Shown piece by piece: positions 40,480-51,800 of a stretch of DNA of 64,000 nt; position 1 is the first letter of the stretch, and every line of letters starts with the position of its first letter. Location of the stretch: assembly GCF_004752005.1 (NCBI RefSeq), contig NZ_CP038493.1:682001-746000 (forward strand), read 5' to 3'. This DNA is from Thalassotalea sp. HSM 43. Its GTDB lineage: Bacteria; Pseudomonadota; Gammaproteobacteria; Enterobacterales; Alteromonadaceae. The translations under genes were made by a program, and so were the position numbers. The notes under the pieces were generated by a model that had not been told where the DNA came from, made no database searches, and was given only the letters and a program-made list of their open reading frames with translations.

Positions 40480-40866
40480 ATGAAATACAGCGTCAAGGTA
40501 CTTGCCTTATTAGCTTTGTTAATGTCTATGCCGAGCCTTGCTCAGGCAGATGAGACTGTGTTTAGCGTTATGCCAAACAAATGCATTGTTAAAAATAAAG
40601 GAGAGAGTTGTAACACCGAACTCACTCTGCAATGGCAATTACCCGACGCACAAAACATCTGCATTCTTAAAAATAATAACATCGTCCACTGTCAACAAAA
40701 TAGTAAACAAGGTTCATTTGTTTACCCGGTAGAGACGGCAGAAACATTGAATTTTAAATTGGTAGAAATGACCACCTTAACCGAGCTTTCGACCTTTAAA
40801 TTCAGTCTATTATACTTAGGTAAAACATCGGCGAAACGCCGCAAACTTCCTTGGCGATTGTTATAA
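40480..40866 (+). CDS. DUF3019 family secreted protein
   Basis: The 128-residue protein has a signal peptide (SLAQADE, about residue 23). The mature part is a small beta-rich domain with four Cys (CIVKNKGESC and NICILKNNNIVHC), probably two disulfides, matching DUF3019 as seen next to MipA and OmpR-type regulators in Alteromonadales. It could be a periplasmic accessory or sensor for the kinase; the function is unknown. The stop overlaps the regulator's ATG by one base (TAATG). Confidence 0.8.
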   Translation: MKYSVKVLALLALLMSMPSLAQADETVFSVMPNKCIVKNKGESCNTELTLQWQLPDAQNICILKNNNIVHCQQNSKQGSFVYPVETAETLNFKLVEMTTLTELSTFKFSLLYLGKTSAKRRKLPWRLL

Positions 40867-41600
40867 TGCAAGAATATGAACTACAAAAAATACTTCTCAT
40901 AGAAGATGATCACAAACTTGGTCTAAAGATAAAGCGATTTTTAGAGCAACATGATTACGAAGTTGAATGGCTTAATGGCGGCTCTTTGTTGGGTGTTGAC
41001 GCAAAAGTTAATGCCTTCGATGTGATATTGTGTGATATCGATTTACCTGACATGTCTGGCTTTGATATATGCAACCAATGGCGCGACAAGTTCGATGGTG
41101 CGTTTATCTTTATCACAGCCTTTACTGACTCAGATTGTCAAATTGAAGGCTTAGAAATGGGCGCAGATGATTTTATCGTCAAACCTTTTGTGCCGGATGT
41201 ATTGTTAGCTCGTGTTCGAACCGCAATTCGCAAATTAAAACTGTTCAAAGCAAAAGATGAATCACCTTCATCAACGCAAAGTGACGATGAGACACCGATT
41301 ACCCTACCTGAGCTGCACTTAACTCCAGCAACACAGCAAGTTAAAGTGGCTGATACCCTACTTAACCTCACGCAACAAGAGTTTAAAATCCTCTACTTAT
41401 TTGCCCGCAATTTTAATTATAAAGTGACCAGGGATGTGATCAGCAAGATCGTCATGAATCGTGAATATGATGGTTTTGATCGAAGTGTTGATGTCTATGT
41501 CAGCAAACTGCGTAAAAAGTTTAACACCATAAACGGTAACCCTTACCAAATTAATACCTTATGGGGTAAAGGTTACGTGCTTACTAATCAGGAAGATTAA
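40866..41600 (+). CDS. OmpR/RstA-family response regulator
   Basis: The start is the ATG at 40866, coupled to the DUF3019 stop (244 residues). The receiver domain covers about 7-120 with acidic pair IEDD, phosphoacceptor Asp57 (CDIDLPDMSG) and VKPF lysine. A linker of about 25 residues precedes a winged helix-turn-helix (LTQQEFKILYLFARN, VDVYVSKLRKKF). It likely controls the upstream mipA-DUF3019 genes and others. It is paired with the kinase 7 bases downstream. Confidence 0.92.
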   Translation: MQEYELQKILLIEDDHKLGLKIKRFLEQHDYEVEWLNGGSLLGVDAKVNAFDVILCDIDLPDMSGFDICNQWRDKFDGAFIFITAFTDSDCQIEGLEMGADDFIVKPFVPDVLLARVRTAIRKLKLFKAKDESPSSTQSDDETPITLPELHLTPATQQVKVADTLLNLTQQEFKILYLFARNFNYKVTRDVISKIVMNREYDGFDRSVDVYVSKLRKKFNTINGNPYQINTLWGKGYVLTNQED

Positions 41601-41607
41601 CAAATAA

Positions 41608-42795
41608 ATGAACAAGCAGTTTCTGCGTCTCACGCTATTTTTGGTGGCGTCGCTAATTATTTTAGCGCTAAGTCTCCAATTAGTATGGGAGTCCATTGAA
41701 CCAAGTGAGACGGTGATATCCGTCGATGATTTTTATCACTCGTCTATTGAACGTAAAGGCGATATCTTTACCATGGTGCCGTTAAACACCATTTCATTGC
41801 CAGCGGATATGCTTGAGCCGTTAAAAGGCGGTGAAATCATTCGTGTTGATGACGAACAAGATAACGCCTATTACTATAAGCTCCACAATAACGCGGTATT
41901 AATTTTAGGGCCGATTGTTGACGACGATCTGGGCCAAGACAGTCACCAGTTAGTGACTACATTATTTTATGCTGGCTGTGGTTTAATTATCTTATTCTGG
42001 TTTCGACCTGCTTTTGTCGATTTACGTAAATTATCGACCTCAGTTATGGAGTTCTCCAAAAACGCCAAATGGCAACACTTGCATTTAAAGCCTACCTCAA
42101 TTGCCTACCCTGCTGCCAATACCATCAATCAAATGGCTGAACGCATTGAGCAATTAATCGATTTGCAAAAAAATCTATCACGTATGGTCGGTCATGAAAT
42201 ACGTACCCCTCTGGCTCGTACTGGGTTTTCGATAGCCAGCTTAAAGCACGAGCCTAGCCTTGATGAATTGCTGTCTATTGAAGAAGACTTGCAAGAAATT
42301 GAAGATCTCACTGAAGAATTTTTGCAAATTACCAAGCTGGAATTCGACTCGAAAGACATTGTTTTAGTTAAGCAAAATGTTTATGCTCCAATCGAAGATT
42401 TAGTCAATAAATTACAAAAAGCATCACGCATTAATATCGTTATCGACATGGACAATAATGTCACTGCACCGGTCGAAACCAAAACCTTTAAACGTTTAAT
42501 GCAAAACTTGATCACCAATGCCTTAAAACACGCCAATGAACAAGTTGAGATACGCTTTAGCCAGGTCAACGATCAATTTACCATCAGTGTCAGCGACGAT
42601 GGCGGCGGCTTTGAACAAACCCAACAGCTTGATAAACCGTTTTATCAAGGCAACCCAAAAGTCGATGGTTATGGCCTAGGTCTTTCGATTGTTAAGATGA
42701 TTGCCGCTTGGTATCAAGGCGATATCCAATTCACCCAATCAAACACCTTAAATGGCGCTAAAGTCAGCTTTACTTGGCCTATAGACGAAGATTAA
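41608..42795 (+). CDS. RstB-like sensor histidine kinase
   Basis: The 395-residue protein has an N-terminal helix (7-27), a periplasmic domain of about 85 residues, a second helix (115-135), a HAMP-like stretch, HisKA with GHEIRTPLARTGFSI (His196), and HATPase with NLITNALKHA, VSDDGGGF and GYGLGLSIV. The H-box HEIRTPLART resembles RstB. The periplasmic domain is small. The signal is unknown; MipA and DUF3019 in the same unit suggest an envelope or cationic stress input. Confidence 0.92.
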   Translation: MNKQFLRLTLFLVASLIILALSLQLVWESIEPSETVISVDDFYHSSIERKGDIFTMVPLNTISLPADMLEPLKGGEIIRVDDEQDNAYYYKLHNNAVLILGPIVDDDLGQDSHQLVTTLFYAGCGLIILFWFRPAFVDLRKLSTSVMEFSKNAKWQHLHLKPTSIAYPAANTINQMAERIEQLIDLQKNLSRMVGHEIRTPLARTGFSIASLKHEPSLDELLSIEEDLQEIEDLTEEFLQITKLEFDSKDIVLVKQNVYAPIEDLVNKLQKASRINIVIDMDNNVTAPVETKTFKRLMQNLITNALKHANEQVEIRFSQVNDQFTISVSDDGGGFEQTQQLDKPFYQGNPKVDGYGLGLSIVKMIAAWYQGDIQFTQSNTLNGAKVSFTWPIDED

Positions 42796-43100: not shown

Positions 43101-43517
43101 TTACCAACAAGCGCTTGGCGCTTTTAACCCTTTTGGATTAGAGGCACTAAATGTTAACGTCATTGAGGTACAGCCGGTATCTTTGGCTTGCACTCCTTGA
43201 GCCGTTGCAGTAATAACATATGCGTTGCCACTTACACTGCCCAATGACAATTGATAATAACCATTGTCGGTTGTCGCACTGCCTCTCACCGTTTTAGCCG
43301 CACAGTTATTCGCAGAGCCAAAACTCGAACCATAAGTTGCGCAATTACCACGAAGTTTCTTTTGTTGAATTGCAATTTCATACATAGCGGTCTTCGCATC
43401 AGCACGCCGTGACTTCATCATCGAATCAGCAAAAGACGGGTAAGCAATGCCGGCAATAATGCCGACAATGGCAACAACAATCATTAATTCAATTAATGTA
43501 AAACCTTTAGCTCTCAT
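43101..43517 (-). CDS. pilE: Type IV minor pilin PilE
   Basis: The 138-residue protein has a type III signal peptide with cleavage MRAKG/FTLIEL, Glu5 present, and a 22-residue hydrophobic helix followed by a small beta-domain with four Cys (CATYGSSFGSANNC, then GC and CW at the C-terminus), a typical minor pilin. PilE-type minor pilins help prime type IVa pilus assembly with FimT/U, PilV, PilW and PilX. It is the last gene of cluster A, 9 bases after the large PilV-like gene. Confidence 0.9.
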   Translation of the reverse strand: MRAKGFTLIELMIVVAIVGIIAGIAYPSFADSMMKSRRADAKTAMYEIAIQQKKLRGNCATYGSSFGSANNCAAKTVRGSATTDNGYYQLSLGSVSGNAYVITATAQGVQAKDTGCTSMTLTFSASNPKGLKAPSACW

Positions 43518-43526
43518 TATTAACTC

Positions 43527-45641
43527 CTAAGGACAGCTGTCGCCATTTTTAATGTTTTGCAATGTCGCGCTTACGCTAAACGTACCCGGCGACACCGCGG
43601 TAAATTCTATATGACTTAACGGCACACCATCGACTTTCGTATATTTACCGACCAGTTCAACATCATTCACTGACAAACAGACATCCAAATTACTGTCACT
43701 TTGAAAATAAATGCTACCTGTCCAGGTATCACCGTCATCGATAGTATCAGACGAACATTCAAAGCCGGTTTGCTCGGCATTAATTAAGCAAACACCGTTA
43801 GCGTCGCTAATCGTAACATCTGCTAAAGACTTACCACCAGAGCCTTGTGTAATGTCACCAACAACGTTAAATACTTGGCCCATTTTACAAACAAATTGCT
43901 CTGTCGCGGTGTGATCGGCTTTGATCACATCATGATATTGTCTTAAATCGGAACAGGTCATCTGCGATAAATCAGGGTTTACCTGAATATAACCCGACCA
44001 ACCATTTTCTAAATCGCTTGCTTCCGCCCAATCGTAAACATCACAACGATAATCTATGGTATAGATGTTAAATATACTTTCAATAAAGCCAGCAAATACC
44101 GGTGCATCGGCAGTACAATTTAGTGGCCCATCAGAGGTATTAACCGTAAATGGCGGGACATCATCACCAACTACACCAATTTTAATACTACCAGTAATCT
44201 GATGTTTCTGTGATGGAGGATCACTTGGATCAAACGGGCAGTTATTATTTACTGAATAACCAAATGCTTCGAGTTTGGTGTCATCAATATAAGCCGAGCC
44301 CATATTATTTAAACAGTAAAAATCGTCTGGGTTACCAATAAATAAGCCGCCAGTAATACCATCGACGTTAGCATCTGTACGCACCATGATACCGTCATTG
44401 ACACACAACTCACCATCACTATCACCTGGTTGCATCTTATTAACAACAAAGTCATGCGGTGCTTCAGCAGGCTCTGCATCTGGATTTGGCAGAACCAAGG
44501 CATCTTTTACGCCCACCGAATAATAAATGGTATCACCATTATCATCGACAATAGGTGAATATACGTCATCACCGTTTACATCTTGAGTGGTCTTAGTGTC
44601 GTCAATCTCAAACGCCATACCACGATATACACGACGGGTTGCGATTTGCGGTCGTTCGAATGCATCTGCTGATGTCGGATCACCAACACAAACCTTGTCA
44701 GATTGGCTTATACCGCTTCCAAGAATGATACCAATATTGCCGTGCCAACCACCTCCTAGATAACAGGTATACTGATAGTAACTGTAATCACCATTATCCG
44801 TGGTTAAAGCTGTTGTGCTGTCCGCCGTTACCTGCACAGTTTTACCGGTATCATCAACGTAATAACGTTGACAAAACGCGGCATCAGAGGCTTTGACGTA
44901 AACTTCACCGATAGATAATTGATTTTGTGTTGCCGTATCAATATAAACATGCCCAGAAATTTCAACAAAGCCAGTACACTCGCCAACATCGTAGTCGATG
45001 ACTTCATCATCAATCTGACAGGCATCTTTTAGCGTTAATACAATGTCATCACCGGATGTTAAACGTAAATCACCGTCTTCGCGGTTAACCAAGCCGGTTA
45101 AATCATCGTTCATAACCATACGACGTCGATCATCATCGGTAACCTGACCTTCACCTAGCTCAGCTCGACCGGTTGCAGAACGCACATAAAACTCATCATC
45201 GTCACTATTATCTATTTCACCACTAATAACCGGTGACTCATAACCGAGGCTTGTGACTAATTCGACCGATTCCGACACACCGTCACTGGTTTCCCAACTG
45301 ACCATAATCGAAATTTCTTTGGCTTTAGCGTTATCGGTGATGTTTTCTTGACGTAAAAAAGAGGTGTTAGAACCTGCTACTTTTGTGTCATTACTGTAAC
45401 CATTAGTTGCCGTATATAAGGTTTCAAATTCAGCCGCAGTAAATGCATCATTACTGATATTACGCATTTGTTCGAGGCGTTGTTGGGCAATCGCCATGGC
45501 TTCCGCTTTAGCTTTATTTTCAGCACTACCACCAATAAGTGAGGTTTGAAATGACGCTACCGCCAAAAGGCCAACAGCCATAATTGCTAACGCAACAAGA
45601 ACTTCGATAAGACCAAATCCGTAATTACGATATTTATTCAT
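43527..45641 (-). CDS. Giant PilV-like minor pilin with three Cys-containing C-terminal modules
   Basis: The first 130 residues are a PilV-type pilin: prepilin site NYGFG/LIEV-like (Gly before FGLIEVLVAL), Glu5, then AMAIAQQRLEQMRN. The total is 704 residues where PilV usually has about 170-200. The extension (about 150-704) contains three units sharing the pattern [IV]-x-G-x-I, then Y/F-x-C, then GW- or TW-type turns before G-[NYS]-I (GGWHGNIGI, GWSGYIQVN, TWTGSIYFQ) and a final Cys. This resembles secreted Ig-like/carboxypeptidase-regulatory modules. It sits between pilX and pilE, where pilY1 is expected. A tip-adhesin role is inferred. Confidence 0.75.
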   Translation of the reverse strand: MNKYRNYGFGLIEVLVALAIMAVGLLAVASFQTSLIGGSAENKAKAEAMAIAQQRLEQMRNISNDAFTAAEFETLYTATNGYSNDTKVAGSNTSFLRQENITDNAKAKEISIMVSWETSDGVSESVELVTSLGYESPVISGEIDNSDDDEFYVRSATGRAELGEGQVTDDDRRRMVMNDDLTGLVNREDGDLRLTSGDDIVLTLKDACQIDDEVIDYDVGECTGFVEISGHVYIDTATQNQLSIGEVYVKASDAAFCQRYYVDDTGKTVQVTADSTTALTTDNGDYSYYQYTCYLGGGWHGNIGIILGSGISQSDKVCVGDPTSADAFERPQIATRRVYRGMAFEIDDTKTTQDVNGDDVYSPIVDDNGDTIYYSVGVKDALVLPNPDAEPAEAPHDFVVNKMQPGDSDGELCVNDGIMVRTDANVDGITGGLFIGNPDDFYCLNNMGSAYIDDTKLEAFGYSVNNNCPFDPSDPPSQKHQITGSIKIGVVGDDVPPFTVNTSDGPLNCTADAPVFAGFIESIFNIYTIDYRCDVYDWAEASDLENGWSGYIQVNPDLSQMTCSDLRQYHDVIKADHTATEQFVCKMGQVFNVVGDITQGSGGKSLADVTISDANGVCLINAEQTGFECSSDTIDDGDTWTGSIYFQSDSNLDVCLSVNDVELVGKYTKVDGVPLSHIEFTAVSPGTFSVSATLQNIKNGDSCP

Positions 45642-45650
45642 AATAACTCC

Positions 45651-46865
45651 CTAAAAATCTCTCCAACTTCCTGCTGCAACAGTCGGAATTGTATTCAACC
45701 TAGTGTTTTTTAATAGGTCAGTATTGTAATGAATATCTAAACTGCCACTGGTGGTATTAAAGCCACCGCCGGTGACAACGGCACCATGAAACGTCGCATT
45801 TGCCGACACTTCGGTGGTATCCATGATAAAAACCACACCGTAAAAGTGCGGTGTACCGGACATAGAGACATTACCATTAACGATAAGAATGCTTGGCGCT
45901 TCATCATCACTTGGGCACACATTGTTACCTGTTACTACAGATTTACAACCTACGGTACCGCCATTGATATTGAGATCGCCTTCATACCAAACCACTTCAT
46001 TTCGAGCACCTTCAGCGCAATCGGCATAAGTATTGGCATCACAGCCCTTAGAATCACCCGGCGATGCCGGATCAATGACCACGGTCGCGACACGTTCTTT
46101 GTATTGAAGAGGTGACATGCCGAAAAAGTTTTCAAACATTTCTTCAGGCGTCAAGTTGGCCAAATCTGAGTCATGCTCAAGAATATCCAAACCAACAGTT
46201 TCTTTATTTGATGTTTGAATTTCGCTACAGGCGCGAGGCACATCCATACAAGCGGGATAATTCACATCACTTGGGTCGGCAATAAACGTTGCGGTGGCGT
46301 TATTCGAACCAATATCAATATCGCCACCACTCCAAATCGAACTATGTCCTTCTGGATTATGTACTGATGCAGAACCGTTTATATCTAAATTACCACGAGT
46401 ACTGAGTGGGTTATCTGGCATATTTGGAATAGGGTCTAACGCTTGCAAGGTAACAGTGATGGTTCTGGTGGCAGACTCATCTTCACTCCAACCTTGTGAG
46501 ATCACTTCGATTGATATCACATCTGAGGCGCTAATTTCATTGACACTGATTTGTACAGGCGATGTACCAATGGTACCAGTGGCTGAGTCACCGATGCCAT
46601 CTCCGTCAGAATCGAATACCGGATCAATATTGCCATCGTCATCTTGATCTAAGCCATCAGCATAATATTCGAGCGCAAGAGCCAGGCCACCTTCTGCGGC
46701 TTCAAATGCTCGTTTCGAGCGCATATCATTATTGACCAGCTGTTGTTCAAAAATAACACTGCGGGCTAAATACAAGCTGATTAAGGTGATTAAAATCAAT
46801 AAAATGATGGAAATAGCGAGTACTGCTACACCTTGCTGTTTACGGCGAAGCGTTAATTGTTTCAT
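45651..46865 (-). CDS. pilX: PilX-type minor pilin with C-terminal extension
   Basis: The N-terminus matches PilX: basic leader MKQLTLRRKQQG, then VAVLAISIILLILITLISLY without Glu5, as is common in PilX, then AFEAAEGGLALAL. At 404 residues it is about twice the usual length. Residues 70-90 contain DQDDDGNIDP and DSDGDGIGD, likely Ca2+ loops. The extension has strand-turn units (LDINGS, IDIGSN, LNINGG, VSMSG, VSANATFHGAVVTGGG) that look like a beta-helix. It overlaps the pilW stop by one base and precedes the giant PilV by 9 bases. Confidence 0.82.
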   Translation of the reverse strand: MKQLTLRRKQQGVAVLAISIILLILITLISLYLARSVIFEQQLVNNDMRSKRAFEAAEGGLALALEYYADGLDQDDDGNIDPVFDSDGDGIGDSATGTIGTSPVQISVNEISASDVISIEVISQGWSEDESATRTITVTLQALDPIPNMPDNPLSTRGNLDINGSASVHNPEGHSSIWSGGDIDIGSNNATATFIADPSDVNYPACMDVPRACSEIQTSNKETVGLDILEHDSDLANLTPEEMFENFFGMSPLQYKERVATVVIDPASPGDSKGCDANTYADCAEGARNEVVWYEGDLNINGGTVGCKSVVTGNNVCPSDDEAPSILIVNGNVSMSGTPHFYGVVFIMDTTEVSANATFHGAVVTGGGFNTTSGSLDIHYNTDLLKNTRLNTIPTVAAGSWRDF

Positions 46866-47650
46866 TATCGAACCCTCACCATGTCATTGCGAACTTTAAT
46901 GGATTGTTGAATCGTATACGTCACTTCACTGTCTGAATTTAGTGTTGCCGCTAAGGTGATGATAATTTCTCTCGTCTCAACCGTAGTATCGCCGCTACCC
47001 ACTGTTGGTGTTTGCGCATAACAGTCTATTTCGCCATTATCATCGACACCATTGGCGCCATCGTTGTCTATCTCATCAGGCTCTCGTGTATTGACACACT
47101 CTGAATTTTGCGGGTTAAAACTAAGACGAGTAATGCTGTATAACTCCGAATCACTGATTTCTTCCCAATCGCCATCATTTTCATTGCAGCTATCAGCATT
47201 TGCGACTGTACCTGTAGTGCGCATTTCGATAACGCTGCCGTTTTTACGATAGCCAAAAAACTCGCTGTCTGAATCAAGCTCTCCGTCGTTATCGGCATCA
47301 TAAGCAAAGATGATACACTCACCATCAACATTGCTATTTTCAGCAACCACGGTATTGGCTGAAATTGAATTAAACACCGCTAAAGCGCTGTCATTAGGGA
47401 CACTAAATGGGTTCGATGAAGGTGTTTCTGTAAATGTGCCCCAATAGCCAGCACGACGAATATCATTGGTCATCACACTCATGATGGTCATCAACTGTGT
47501 GCTGAGCTTCGACTCTTTCAAAGTACTGCCGCTACTGGAAACAACCGAGACATATATGGTTGTAACGCCAGCAAGAACTATTAAGCCAAACACCATGGAA
47601 AGCAATAACTCAACTAAGGTGAAACCTTTTTGATTGATTAAAGGCCGCAT
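46865..47650 (-). CDS. pilW: PilW-type minor pilin
   Basis: The 261-residue protein has prepilin cleavage KG/FTLVELLLSM with Glu5, then the PilW features TLKESKLSTQLMTIMSVMTNDIRRAGYWG. Two acidic loops, YDADNDGELDSD and DEIDNDGANGVDDNG, look like Ca2+-binding DxDxDG motifs. It overlaps fimT by 13 bases and pilX by 1, so these genes are translationally coupled. Confidence 0.85.
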   Translation of the reverse strand: MRPLINQKGFTLVELLLSMVFGLIVLAGVTTIYVSVVSSSGSTLKESKLSTQLMTIMSVMTNDIRRAGYWGTFTETPSSNPFSVPNDSALAVFNSISANTVVAENSNVDGECIIFAYDADNDGELDSDSEFFGYRKNGSVIEMRTTGTVANADSCNENDGDWEEISDSELYSITRLSFNPQNSECVNTREPDEIDNDGANGVDDNGEIDCYAQTPTVGSGDTTVETREIIITLAATLNSDSEVTYTIQQSIKVRNDMVRVR

Positions 47651-48222
47651 GCATTGTACTCCGCATAATCATCAGAACAAATATTGACAACACCCAACCT
47701 GTTAACACGCACCACGATTGCGTTATTTGAAGCATCAGAAAACATAAAATTTCGACCTACATCAACAGTGCCTCTAGTGGGATCAAAGACCAGACTCGTG
47801 GTGATGGTACCACTTTGATAGTACATTCTAATGCTAAGCTCATCGTGCTCACTGCCGTCAACTCGAAACAGCACATCATCATTAGCCGCGCTGTAAGAGC
47901 CGTCACCGTCATCTATGGTTAATACACAGGCAAGTGGATCGGTATTCGACGTTTTACTGGGATCACAAGACTCCCCTACTTTCATGCCATAAGACCATGA
48001 TGATGAGGTCATATTGCTAACGGTAAAGTGAACTTCTTCGGAGCGAGCGATAGACTCAGAACGAGCTTGTTGCAGGAAAGAATACATCTGTTCAGCGGCG
48101 CTAACTAACTTACCTTTCTTGAAGGAATCCATAAAGCTAGGGCCAGCAGCACTCACCAATATACTCAGGACGAGTACAGTGATTAAGATTTCTATTAGTG
48201 TTATGCCTTTTATTCTTTTCAT
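47638..48222 (-). CDS. fimT: FimT/GspH-type minor pseudopilin
   Basis: The start is the ATG at 48222 (194 residues); a TTG at 48237 in frame is less likely. The prepilin site KG/ITLIEILITV is followed by GPSFMDSFKKGKLVSAAEQMYSFLQQARSESIARSEEVHF, the typical FimT/GspH sequence (here described in outline), and a beta-domain with Cys pairs. It is the first gene of minor-pilin cluster A and helps prime pilus assembly. Confidence 0.85.
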   Translation of the reverse strand: MKRIKGITLIEILITVLVLSILVSAAGPSFMDSFKKGKLVSAAEQMYSFLQQARSESIARSEEVHFTVSNMTSSSWSYGMKVGESCDPSKTSNTDPLACVLTIDDGDGSYSAANDDVLFRVDGSEHDELSIRMYYQSGTITTSLVFDPTRGTVDVGRNFMFSDASNNAIVVRVNRLGVVNICSDDYAEYNACGL

Positions 48223-48546
48223 TATCCAATACCCCAACTGCAGCTAACATCCTGCAGAAGCGCTTCCCTTGTATCGCTTGAATATCCTATAAAACAGCTT
48301 TTTTGTTAAAATTAATGTGTTGCTTTGTGATCCATCCTGATCGACAAAGCCTTTTACTTCCTATTCACTAATCTAACATTAAATTTAAATTACTACTAGA
48401 TAATAACTACATTTTAGTCTTGCTAAGTGGTTAATATTTGTCCAAAAAACACTTTACTCTAGCTGCTATGGCACGTTAATCCTAGCGATAGGCTGTAAAA
48501 ATAACGCTATGCTTATAACGTATGTTATCAACATGGATGTTAATAA
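48223..48546. other. Divergent promoter region between the two minor-pilin clusters
   Basis: 324 AT-rich bases between fimT (minus) and the pilV-like gene (plus). I see no ORF. TGGCACG at 48469-48475 resembles a -24 box but has no GC at the -12 position. Confidence 0.55.
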
Positions 48547-49116
48547 ATGCAACGAACAAACCAGACTGCGTTTTTTAAGAGACGAAATCTCACCAAATAC
48601 GAAAACAGAAACAAAAATAGAAATAATAACAGAAACCAAGGCAGTACCTTGCTTGAGGTGTTAGTGGCCATGCTACTGCTGACATTAGTTATGCTCTATT
48701 TAGCTAATGTTGTCTTGCATGCGACCAGCAAAAGCCACAATAATATCCGGCAAATACAGGCACAATATCTTTTAAACGACCTTATTAACCTTCTCAGCAG
48801 CAATGACGGTGCGATAAATAACTACGCTCATCAGTTAACATCTGCAGCTTCTCTCAGCTCTTCGGCGGCAGCTGCCGGCTCGTTAGTAGATTGCAACATT
48901 AGCCAGTGTGAGCCTGACATAGTCGCTAAGTATCAACTCGCCAACTGGCAACAACAACTGCATCACTTGCCAAATGGCGCAAGCAAGCTTAACGTGACCT
49001 CGAATAAAGCCACCGCTAGCCTATTCTGGTCTGAACTCGGCCAAGTGGAAAACTACACAGAGTGCCCCAGTAAAACCGACAATTACTATTGCCTGAGCCT
49101 AGATTATGAATATTAA
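48547..49116 (+). CDS. PilV-like minor pilin with long Asn/Arg-rich leader
   Basis: The 189-residue protein has prepilin motif NQG/STLLEVLVAM (Glu5), a hydrophobic helix, and ATSKSHNNIRQIQAQYLLNDLINLL as in PilV. The leader before the cleavage Gly is about 32 residues and rich in Asn, Arg and Lys, longer than usual, and no alternative start codon lies inside it. The C-terminal domain has Cys pairs (CNISQC). It overlaps the next gene by 11 bases. It is the first gene of cluster B. Confidence 0.75.
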   Translation: MQRTNQTAFFKRRNLTKYENRNKNRNNNRNQGSTLLEVLVAMLLLTLVMLYLANVVLHATSKSHNNIRQIQAQYLLNDLINLLSSNDGAINNYAHQLTSAASLSSSAAAAGSLVDCNISQCEPDIVAKYQLANWQQQLHHLPNGASKLNVTSNKATASLFWSELGQVENYTECPSKTDNYYCLSLDYEY

Positions 49117-50008
49117 GGGCTTTAGCTTAGTCGAGTTAATGATATCTATGGCGCTTGGTATATTTATACTGTCGATAACCATGGCAACATTGGCGTCGGT
49201 CAACAAACAATTTAACTATCAGTCGACGCTAAGCGCCATAAATGACACCGCACGTTTTAGCTTTACCTTACTTGAGCAAGATTTAAAAGAAGTCAGCTAT
49301 TGGCAATCTCTAGTTGAGATGAGTCAACTGTCTGGTAGCGCCTTTATCTCGACAGTTACCAATAGCTGCCGCGCTGACTCACAAGATTGGGCGAGAGCTA
49401 TCCAACAAAGTGTGTTTGCGATTAATGATGCACCCAGTGACTATTTGTGTGTCGCTGAAGATGCTTATCTCAGAGGTGACATATTGACGTTACGTGGTAT
49501 TAAGCATGAGCTAGCCACGGCATTTGACCCGAATCAACTTTACCTTAAAACCAATGCTGCTCAGTCAAGGTTTTACTTTGGTCGAGATAGTTCCGATACA
49601 ACCAATCAGCTAAGTAATGCCAGTCAACATCAAACCTTTAGTCACAGTTTTTATATCGGCAACAGTCAAATTCAATGTAACGGGCAACCTGTACCCGCCC
49701 TATATTGGCAAACATCTCATCGCGGCTTTCCGAGAAAGGAAGAATTACTTAGCGGTGTTGAGCACATGCAAATCACTCTTGGGCTAGATAACAATGACGA
49801 TAATATTGTCGACCAAGTCGTGTCGCCAAATAACGTCGCGAGCTGGCGCAATGTGATGCATGTAACCGTCGATTTATTGGTACGAAGCAAATGCCCGGAT
49901 AGCCAACATGTTGACAATAAGATCTATCGCCTTGGTGATATCACTTATCAAGTAAGCGATAACTATCACCGCCGACAGTTTCGGCAAAGCTTTATCATTA
50001 ACCAATAA
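49106..50008 (+). CDS. PilW-like minor pilin (cluster B)
   Basis: The 300-residue protein has leader MNIKG/FSLVELMISM with Glu5, then LSAINDTARFSFTLLEQDLKEVSYW, the PilW signature. A LGLDNNDDNIVDQ segment is an acidic loop similar to the Ca2+ motifs of cluster A. It is homologous to, but clearly divergent from, the cluster A PilW. It overlaps the PilV-like gene, so translation is coupled. Confidence 0.8.
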   Translation: MNIKGFSLVELMISMALGIFILSITMATLASVNKQFNYQSTLSAINDTARFSFTLLEQDLKEVSYWQSLVEMSQLSGSAFISTVTNSCRADSQDWARAIQQSVFAINDAPSDYLCVAEDAYLRGDILTLRGIKHELATAFDPNQLYLKTNAAQSRFYFGRDSSDTTNQLSNASQHQTFSHSFYIGNSQIQCNGQPVPALYWQTSHRGFPRKEELLSGVEHMQITLGLDNNDDNIVDQVVSPNNVASWRNVMHVTVDLLVRSKCPDSQHVDNKIYRLGDITYQVSDNYHRRQFRQSFIINQ

Positions 50009-50116
50009 TGGAATCATTAAGGCAATAATCAATAAGCCAAGAAATAATACACTAAGAATTAATAAGCTAAGAAAGAATAACAATGCAGACTGGTATAGAT
50101 AAGGCAAAGGCAAGCA

Positions 50117-50611
50117 ATGAGCTTAAAACATAAGCAAAGCGGAGCACTGCTGTTTAGCGTGCTGATAATATTGATCATCATCATGCTCATCGCCAATGCG
50201 ATTTTTAAGCAAGTATTAAATCAGTCATCACAGATAACTATTTTTCAGATGCATCAGTTAAGCAAAAACCGTCGCCATCAGGCGATATCACAAGCGAAAA
50301 AAGAACTGCGCGACAAAATCTCTCGAGGTGATGATTTAACTCTCAGCCATGACTACTACCATGGATACGACACCCGTTTGCAACTTAGCGACATTAACTG
50401 GCAAGACGCAAAGCAATTAGGCAACCACAGTCGATATAAAATTGCTTACTTAGGTCAATTGCCCGCTAATGCCTCGTTAACGTTGCCGGTTAAATACCAT
50501 GTCTTTCACTTGTTTACTCGATCCAACTCACAAGATTCTGCGCCTTATTTGCAACAGCACCTTATTCGTATTGAAGTTAACCGTTCAAAGAGCGCTAACG
50601 AGCAGCAATAA
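50117..50611 (+). CDS. PilX-like minor pilin (cluster B)
   Basis: The 164-residue protein has a short basic leader (MSLKHKQSG), then ALLFSVLIILIIIMLIANAIF without Glu5, as in PilX. The normal length contrasts with the 404-residue cluster A homologue. The mature part is basic and soluble, with few Cys. A 108-base spacer with imperfect AATAAGCYAAGAA-type repeats separates it from the PilW-like gene. Confidence 0.72.
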   Translation: MSLKHKQSGALLFSVLIILIIIMLIANAIFKQVLNQSSQITIFQMHQLSKNRRHQAISQAKKELRDKISRGDDLTLSHDYYHGYDTRLQLSDINWQDAKQLGNHSRYKIAYLGQLPANASLTLPVKYHVFHLFTRSNSQDSAPYLQQHLIRIEVNRSKSANEQQ

Positions 50612-50666
50612 AAACTATGAATAAAGGCCTATAAGAAAACATGAAAAATTCATATGAAAAACACTT

Positions 50667-51110
50667 ATGAAAAAAGTAAGCAGTCTTAGAGGGGTTACTT
50701 TGATTGAACTGATGATAACTTTAGTGATTATCGTCATTCTATCAAGTGTTGCGCTAACTAATTATCAGCAATGGTTAATGAAGGTTAACCGCGAAGATGC
50801 AAAAGCCAGCTTATTAGCTCTGGCCATTGCCCAACAACAGCACTTCAGCAAGTATTTAACATACAGTGACAACCTTGTGCTGTTGGCTCATCAACAGTGG
50901 CCAGATACAACTTTGTCACAACAACAAAAATATCGTTTAACGATTGCGACCACAACACACCATACCGGCGTAATAGACAGCTTTATGATCACCGCAACCG
51001 CGCATGATACGCAGCAAAAAGATAGCGAGTGTTTTACGTTCCGCATCGACCATCAGCAATTTCTGCAAGCATTTACTCAATCAGGCGAGCATAACAATGC
51101 TTGCCTCTGA
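50667..51110 (+). CDS. PilE-like minor pilin (cluster B)
   Basis: The 147-residue protein has leader MKKVSSLRG/VTLIELMITL with Glu5, then YQQWLMKVNREDAKASLLALAIAQQQHFSKYLTY, the PilE-type continuation, and a C-terminal Cys pair (DSECFTF, NNACL). It is the last gene of cluster B, a second PilE beside that at 43101. Confidence 0.8.
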   Translation: MKKVSSLRGVTLIELMITLVIIVILSSVALTNYQQWLMKVNREDAKASLLALAIAQQQHFSKYLTYSDNLVLLAHQQWPDTTLSQQQKYRLTIATTTHHTGVIDSFMITATAHDTQQKDSECFTFRIDHQQFLQAFTQSGEHNNACL

Positions 51111-51203: not shown

Positions 51204-51800
51204 TTAATGGCACTGTATCGACTCGCCAGATGCATCATCATGTACGCCATCACCATCGTTATCTTGCGATACGCGTACTCGCCCTGCTCTGGTGACAATC
51301 AGCGCTCGATTATAGCGTTGGTTTTCACCATCGATACATAACCTGAGTGTACCATTTTGATACCAGGTAAAACCGTTATGTTGAAATTGTATGTAGTTGC
51401 GATTTTGAAACGCTCGCCAAGTGGCTACGATGCCGTTTTTGCTCGCTCCCATTCGGTAAAGCACGCTCTCATCTGTTGATTTGCGCTTATCACCATCAAG
51501 ATCAGCAAATACCATAGTCCCTTGCTGCCAGTTGCCAGCGCAGCGCATACCATCGCTTGACGGACATAACGTAACAACGTTTGCTGAACTAATCGCCGCT
51601 TGGCGCGCAAAGGCAAACCCTTGCTGCCATTTATTAACTTCAATCATCATACGCTTTTGTAAAATAAGCTGCTTAAAGCTTGGCAAGGCGACTGTCGATA
51701 ATATGGCAATGATACTGATTGCCACAATCAACTCGATTAAGGTAACGCCGTTTATCGCATAAGATGGCAAGCGTGTTGATATCCTGTTGTTAGGTATCAT
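51204..51800 (-). CDS. FimT/GspH-type minor pseudopilin (second copy)
   Basis: The 198-residue protein has prepilin motif NG/VTLIELIVAI with Glu5, then ALPSFKQLILQKRMMIEVNKWQQGFAFARQAAI. The GspH-domain VFADLDGDKRKSTDESVLYR is typical of FimT/GspH. The C-terminus ends QDNDGDGVHDDASGESIQC, an added Ca2+-loop-like tail. It is the second fimT in the window, convergent with cluster B, and next to ispH as in Pseudomonas pilus loci. Confidence 0.82.
   Translation of the reverse strand: MIPNNRISTRLPSYAINGVTLIELIVAISIIAILSTVALPSFKQLILQKRMMIEVNKWQQGFAFARQAAISSANVVTLCPSSDGMRCAGNWQQGTMVFADLDGDKRKSTDESVLYRMGASKNGIVATWRAFQNRNYIQFQHNGFTWYQNGTLRLCIDGENQRYNRALIVTRAGRVRVSQDNDGDGVHDDASGESIQCH

Follow-up and report, generated by a model that had tools for sequence, protein, structure and literature searches.

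The window analysed here (64,000 nucleotides of Thalassotalea sp. HSM 43, contig NZ_CP038493.1, positions 682,001 to 746,000) carries a gene for a PilV-like minor pilin of 704 amino acids, in which, as in modular pilins, an extra C-terminal part follows the pilin domain, here of about 560 residues and conserved in relatives. The locus raises the question of what a minor pilin does with this extra C-terminal part, and whether the three internal repeats that the initial annotation described in it are real. The gene and its parts were as follows:

43527..45641, minus strand: giant PilV-like minor pilin, 704 amino acids (N_methyl PF07963, E 4.4e-7; TIGR02523, PilV)
45531..45641, minus strand: class III leader (MNKYRNYG / FGLIE) and start of the N-terminal helix, from the sequence, with Glu5
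44688..44972, minus strand: putative module U1, residues 224-318, the most divergent and least certain (motif, homologue tests)
44217..44687, minus strand: conserved region between U1 and U2, residues 319-475 (RRVYRGM, CPFDPSDPP), with invariant blocks in 6/6 aligned sequences
43887..44204, minus strand: module U2, residues 480-585, four Cys (unit profile E 8.3e-21, U2 itself being in the profile; U2 family tests)
43533..43874, minus strand: module U3, residues 590-703, four Cys, the most variable (unit profile E 4.3e-21, U3 itself being in the profile; U2-only HMM)

The protein had the features of a class III prepilin (Gly-1, a hydrophobic helix and Glu at mature position +5) and matched N_methyl with 29.7 bits (cut-off 21.2). 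TIGR02523 (PilV) scored 52.1 bits (E 9.2e-14) against a curated cut-off of 52.2, and the operon position of the gene fits PilV. In the Pfam scan of the protein nothing beyond the N-terminal motif was matched, and the PilY1/PilC domain (PF05567) was absent.

The unit motif, [IV]xGx[IV]...C...[YF]xC...WxGxI...C, was present in three copies. WxGxI occurred exactly three times in the protein (residues 299, 548 and 640), preceded by YTC 291, YRC 531 and FEC 627, and followed by closing cysteines at 318, 563 and 655. The units opened with ISGHV 228, ITGSI 482 and VVGDI 593; the opener as originally claimed, [IV]-x-G-x-I, was right for units 2 and 3 but not for unit 1, where it ends in V. Another such sequence, ISGEI at residue 139, lay outside every unit. 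The repeats themselves proved to be real, unit 1 being the less certain, both by this motif count and by an HMM of U2 alone scored against controls (see below).

Relatives were gathered by genome search and then read from fetched stretches, giving two families of giant PilV, type A (that of the window) and type B. Eighteen type A proteins including the window's were aligned, leaving out the split gene L053: 17 of them had exactly 16 Cys, and the other, L052, had more units and 28 Cys. Fifteen Cys columns were invariant, and the C618 column held Cys in 16 of the 18. On visual reading, the C-terminal domains of type B kept the first two unit Cys and had neither of the last two, a pattern which suggests the disulfide pairing C1-C2 and C3-C4 in U2 and U3. 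In 15 copies from 14 genus genomes, pairwise identity averaged 0.65 over the leader and N-terminal helix, 0.41 over the remaining pilin, 0.60 over residues 138-221, 0.57 over U1, 0.53 over the middle, 0.36 over U2 and 0.25 over U3, with the greatest variability at the end farthest from the pilin.

The gene belongs to a minor pilin cassette (cassette A), which faces a second cluster:

43101..43517, minus strand: pilE/ComP-like pilin of cassette A (PF16732, E 9.3e-19)
45651..46865, minus strand: pilX, 404 amino acids, without Glu5 (cap-type pilin; PF14341, E 1.6e-8, and sequence)
46865..47650, minus strand: pilW-like minor pilin of cassette A (N_methyl, E 1.3e-4; PRK10557.1, E 2.1e-17, below its cut-off)
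47638..48237, minus strand: fimT/fimU-like minor pilin of cassette A, with no G-[RK]-x-[RK] (GspH PF12019, E 1.8e-10; motif scan)
48547..51110, plus strand: divergent cluster B, pilV, pilW, pilX-like and pilE/ComP-like (ORFs and profile matches)
51204..51800, minus strand: FimT with a GRVR motif, adjoining ispH (GspH PF12019, E 1.1e-15; motif scan)

Cassette A was ordered fimT/U, pilW, pilX, giant pilV, pilE (47638-48237 down to 43101-43517), with gene junctions that were either overlaps of up to 13 bases or a 9-base gap, and it stood back to back with cluster B, in which pilX was followed by pilE with no intervening PilY1 gene; the separate fimT lay at 51204-51800. The order fimT-pilW-pilX-giant pilV was constant in the fully read cassettes of the relatives (in G052 fimT was hidden by an overlapping ORF, and the G794 cassette was cut by the contig end), while the position of pilE varied (between fimT and pilW in G789 and G790). 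As read from the N-terminal sequences, Glu5 was kept in 19/19 giant PilV copies having an N-terminus and missing from the cassette pilX in 19/19 copies. The cassette PilX (45651-46865, minus strand) also contained a stretch rich in Asp, DGLDQDDDGNIDPVFDSDGDGIGD, resembling calcium-binding loops, and a similar short stretch, DNDGDGVHDD, was present in the FimT at 51204-51800. Two ORFs reading as a response regulator and a histidine kinase (40851-42795, plus strand) adjoin cassette A and might regulate it.

Modelling in V. cholerae gave the order PilX>PilV>PilW>FimT, with the pilin lacking Glu5 as cap and PilV next to it (available text of PMC12040237). The giant PilV is probably a tip-complex minor pilin with a disulfide-stapled stalk of modules and a variable distal end, and would take over the adhesive role of PilY1. 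Together with FimT/U, PilW and PilX it would build the tip complex of a type IVa pilus, as the PilV (I-type) subunit, its pilin module packing into the tip directly under the PilX cap. U1, the conserved connector, U2 and U3 would form a string of small modules projecting from the tip, with U2 and U3 each held by two disulfides; the conserved proximal part may pack with the tip complex, and the variable distal U3 would be the likely surface for ligand contact. The giant-PilV set would in this way do the adhesive or priming job of PilY1. Cluster B could alternatively supply the tip.

The strong conservation of U1 and of the connecting region would also fit an assembly role, and the number of module copies varies, so that the modules might be a passive spacer or stabiliser, lengthening or stiffening the tip or helping to prime assembly with no specific binding. 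We consider this unlikely: a distal module with 0.25 mean identity and fixed Cys resembles a diversifying binding surface, although relaxed constraint would look alike.

PilY1 is commonly regarded as the adhesin at the tip of type IVa pili in diderms. In the genome of the window no PilY1 was detected by PF05567 (the control genomes of this search had no match over the cut-off either and are no positive control, but the model matches 122 of 147 family genomes), nor by a genus PilY1 profile, built from five genus proteins, at E<=1. With both profiles PilY1 was found in 5/15 genus genomes and was undetected in 10/15, including that of the window. The type A giant-PilV profile matched 14/15 of the same genomes, all except G785. 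Giant PilV was thus present with PilY1 undetected in ten genomes (several of them drafts, and G794 78% complete), the two were together in four (G087, G139, G789 and G790), and G785 had two PilY1 and no giant PilV. In one of the genomes with both, G789, two tandem PilY1 genes belonged to another minor-pilin cluster, close to prlC (L080 3619-10225).

In the family sample of 147 genomes, PilY1 was undetected in 11/29 giant-PilV carriers (6 type A by protein search and 23 type B) vs. 14/118 of the others, with a Fisher p=0.002 that ignores relatedness and pools the two giant-PilV families. Matches below the cut-off were taken as present in this count, and five of the 25 negatives were found by elimination; PF05567 can miss cut genes, as in G031, whose PilY1-like ORF lies at a contig end, and counting that genome as PilY1-positive gave p=0.009. 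PilY1 was also present in 18/29 carriers, and replacement was therefore not strict, as the genus genomes with both genes also indicate. Some Myxococcota genomes have been described without a pilY1 cluster (available part of PMC13190605).

The order nadE, cassette A, cluster B was found in nine genomes (G052, G115, G786, G787, G788, G789, G790, G791 and G793). G087 and G785 had a different occupant between nadE and cluster B, namely a fimT with a cassette made up of pilV, pilW, pilX, PilY1 and pilE; pilE lay behind PilY1 in G087 and ahead of pilV in G785, and the cassette A of G087 was located elsewhere. Two giant-PilV sets in tandem adjoined nadE in G792, only the nadE side of the locus was visible in G794, and in the window's genome and G139 cassette A adjoined cluster B, with nadE outside the stretch read. 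This either-or occupation, by which a single locus in the relatives carries either the giant-PilV set or the PilY1 cassette, is the strongest argument for related functions of the two cassettes. The place and job proposed for giant PilV, at the pilus tip among minor pilins of like type, are those of PilC/PilY1 (PF05567), whose cassette stands at the locus of the giant-PilV set in two relatives; unlike giant PilV, PilY1 is not a pilin, and PF05567 has no counterpart in the 704 residues. It is conceivable, though we hold it with less confidence than the tip assignment, that the cassette of giant PilV makes a type IVa tip without PilY1 and replaces a PilY1 tip cassette by exchange at one locus, with adhesin and minor pilin in one polypeptide and stapled modules gained or lost. 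If so, PilY1 would be a swappable option. This exchange at one locus is the part most worth testing, and a gene set at the PilY1 locus with its own repeat array on PilV makes the idea of a tip adhesin that is a pilin directly testable in a diderm.

As in cassette A, PilX is without Glu5 among the competence minor pilins of V. cholerae (VC0858-VC0861; PMC12040237). These core minor pilins are encoded there in an operon with the gene order of cassette A, fimT-pilW-pilX-pilV (available text of PMC13249403), and by this order cassette A might be a competence tip complex in which giant PilV helps to catch DNA. Against this, the G-[RK]-x-[RK] motif of V. cholerae FimT, reported to contribute to DNA binding (in the part available of PMC12040237), was missing from 15/17 cassette-A FimT proteins and present in 10/10 of those beside cluster B (the FimT of G052 and G794 were left out of the scoring); three FimT-like genes beside PilY1 cassettes were without it, and a FimT beside a further cluster in G453 had it. 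This distribution speaks against DNA capture as the main task of cassette A, and the competence reading is in our judgement improbable, more so than that of a passive spacer. Our preferred reading stays that of a tip pilin taking over from PilY1.

Whether the units form one family was decided mainly through the relatives. The U2-only HMM was made of 17 orthologous U2 units including the window's, with no U1, no U3 and nothing from the many-unit protein L052, and both it and the U3-only HMM were run against 1134 shuffled, reversed or non-repeat sequences. With the U2-only HMM, L052 yielded two additional units, scoring 18.0 and 16.0 bits (best control 5.7), and its U1 at 11.6 bits, and the window's U3 reached 8.0 bits; 4/17 U3 segments and 8/18 U1 segments were above 5.7 bits, so that most single U3 segments fail this test. 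The U3-only HMM found the U2 of L051, L062 and L063 in register (14.5, 14.4 and 13.7 bits) vs. one control at 13.1 bits and the next at 7.9; its score for the window's own U2 was only 3.8 bits, and its best U1 matches (the window's and L058) were out of register.

A 13-unit profile, made of U2, U3 and extra units from eight proteins, was scored against 1320 shuffled sequences (best 10.4 bits). In its alignment the Gly, the Trp-x-Gly and three Cys of the unit were invariant. Outside the proteins used to build it, it found units of G453 (E 1.2e-9 and 3.5e-6) and of a second pilin-like ORF of G455 (E 2.3e-7), as well as a domain at the C-terminus of another kind of giant PilV, in G679 (E 9.4e-5), and the U1 region of G453 reached 13.8 bits. 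Both U2 and U3 were above the best control in 18/18 type A proteins, a count that includes the 13 profile units; L052 had U1 plus four more matches, the last at 11.0 bits, and the second frame of L053 also had four. Column-profile comparison, for which 6 type A and 8 type B proteins were used, lent weak support to U1-U2 (E 0.0074) and U2-U3 (0.028) and none to U1-U3 (0.41), with the lowest unrelated pairs at 0.035 and 0.045. MAFFT applied to the window's units alone (all three, or two) misaligned the cysteines. Given the HMM tests and the matches to units outside the profile, U2 and U3 are, as far as sequence comparison goes, one repeat family; U1 is a less certain, weak member, argued for by its conserved motif and by matches in homologues. 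That the three units are chance motif matches within one large unrelated fold is very improbable, for although unit 1 is weak and partly matched out of register, the U3 profile misses the window's U2 with one control at 13.1 bits, and the AlphaFold2 models have low confidence (pLDDT 43.6 and 45.3), the U2 profile finds the extra L052 units far above all 1134 controls and the unit profile finds the proteins of G453, G679 and G455.

The likeness to CpdR/Ig-like secreted modules proposed for the units fared less well, standing at the level of the motif and not at that of profiles. Units such as ...DYTCIVPSGWSGRIEFSPS... (L098) and ...SFTNVTSDQTANF... (L105) look like such repeats (PF13620 and kin), with which they have in common [YF]xC, GWxGxI and a closing strand. 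In contrast, no significant profile match to these families was obtained, and U2 and U3 have four Cys: CarboxypepD_reg (PF13620) reached E 0.82 in 1/13 units and was absent from the window protein. The best Pfam score of the units was that of CR4_N, the interferon-gamma receptor N-terminal domain (E 0.0013, in 1/13 units only; 14.8 bits on the whole of L058 against a cut-off of 27). Among the results inspected (window protein, relatives and units) no Pfam family matched the module at cut-off, and a PDB sequence search with it returned nothing at E<=10. Single-sequence AlphaFold2 models had low confidence (pLDDT 43.6 for U2 plus U3 and 45.3 for U3 alone), and U3 was built of strands only at these values. 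A CpdR/Ig-like fold is unproven, and what the gene set defines is a cysteine-rich module with neither a Pfam family at cut-off nor a PDB sequence match.

Among 369 class genomes this module was almost confined to PilV-type pilin genes: of 12 matches to the unit profile, 8 fell within giant pilins that are intact and 2 within the split giant of G453 (its second frame); the G455 pilin-like ORF and G501 had 1 each, that of G501 being marginal (E 0.009). The G455 ORF (L105 1465-2631) reads as a PilV-type pilin: an N-terminus that looked pilin-like on visual reading (N_methyl at 11.9 bits, under the cut-off of 21.2) is followed by a long linker rich in Ser/Thr and by one C-terminal module, so that the ORF resembles a natural minimal form of the arrangement.

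A pilin fused to such an array had been called unusual, which does not agree with the literature: modular pilins are widespread, with more than 1,200 proteins and 264 architectures, PF13620 among their modules, and several extra domains on record (available text of PMC8179133). In Streptococcus sanguinis, PilA, PilB and PilC replace the four usual minor pilins (part available of PMC10191384), and PilB and PilC, like giant PilV, have a bulky extra C-terminal part, probably at the tip (PMC8179133, same limits). Unlike theirs, the module of giant PilV matches no Pfam family at cut-off, is repeated (three units; more in L052 and L053), has conserved Cys, and is carried by PilV within a full FimT/U-PilW-PilX-PilV set. 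By Pfam, it is not one of the known functional domains, not specific to pili, that characterise modular pilins. Among the matches listed from the open literature there was no description of giant PilV or of such repeats on PilV. The fusion adds a variant to the known modular pilins; its gene context, on which the initial annotation was silent, is new.

In wider searches, the type A profile matched only the window's genome among 295 order genomes and 4/369 class genomes, the window's included; the single order match reflects the sampling of the genus, since genomes contributing profile proteins would have matched. A tblastn search of plasmids gave no match, and two contig scans showed no relative of giant PilV and one FimT relative. 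Type B was found in 23/147 family genomes (a 40-amino-acid fragment in G019 was dropped) and in 4/369 class genomes. Type A and type B giants have the N-terminus in common, and type B ends in a domain with a similar motif. Column-profile comparison of U2 and U3 with this domain gave E 0.0015 each, and U1 gave nothing (0.31); of 12 type B proteins scored with the unit profile, only L084 (G679, 19.1 bits) was above the best shuffled control (10.4). From these comparisons the type B domain is a likely, though unproven, relative of the module.

Other features of the relatives were seen on reading. Type B proteins (L033-L037, L043-L046) had 10 Cys in the 8 uncut copies and the motifs PGxAPxVI and CCRDHHD, and in other genera they follow fimT-pilW-pilX, with ispH read in 7/9 stretches. 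In G453 the giant pilV was split into two frames (L053 6852-9568), broken or misassembled, and was directly followed by a fimT-pilV-pilW-pilX cluster with an ORF that reads as PilY1-like. The tandem locus of G792 (L081 6480-16703) consisted of two fimT-pilW-pilX-giant pilV sets with one pilE between them.
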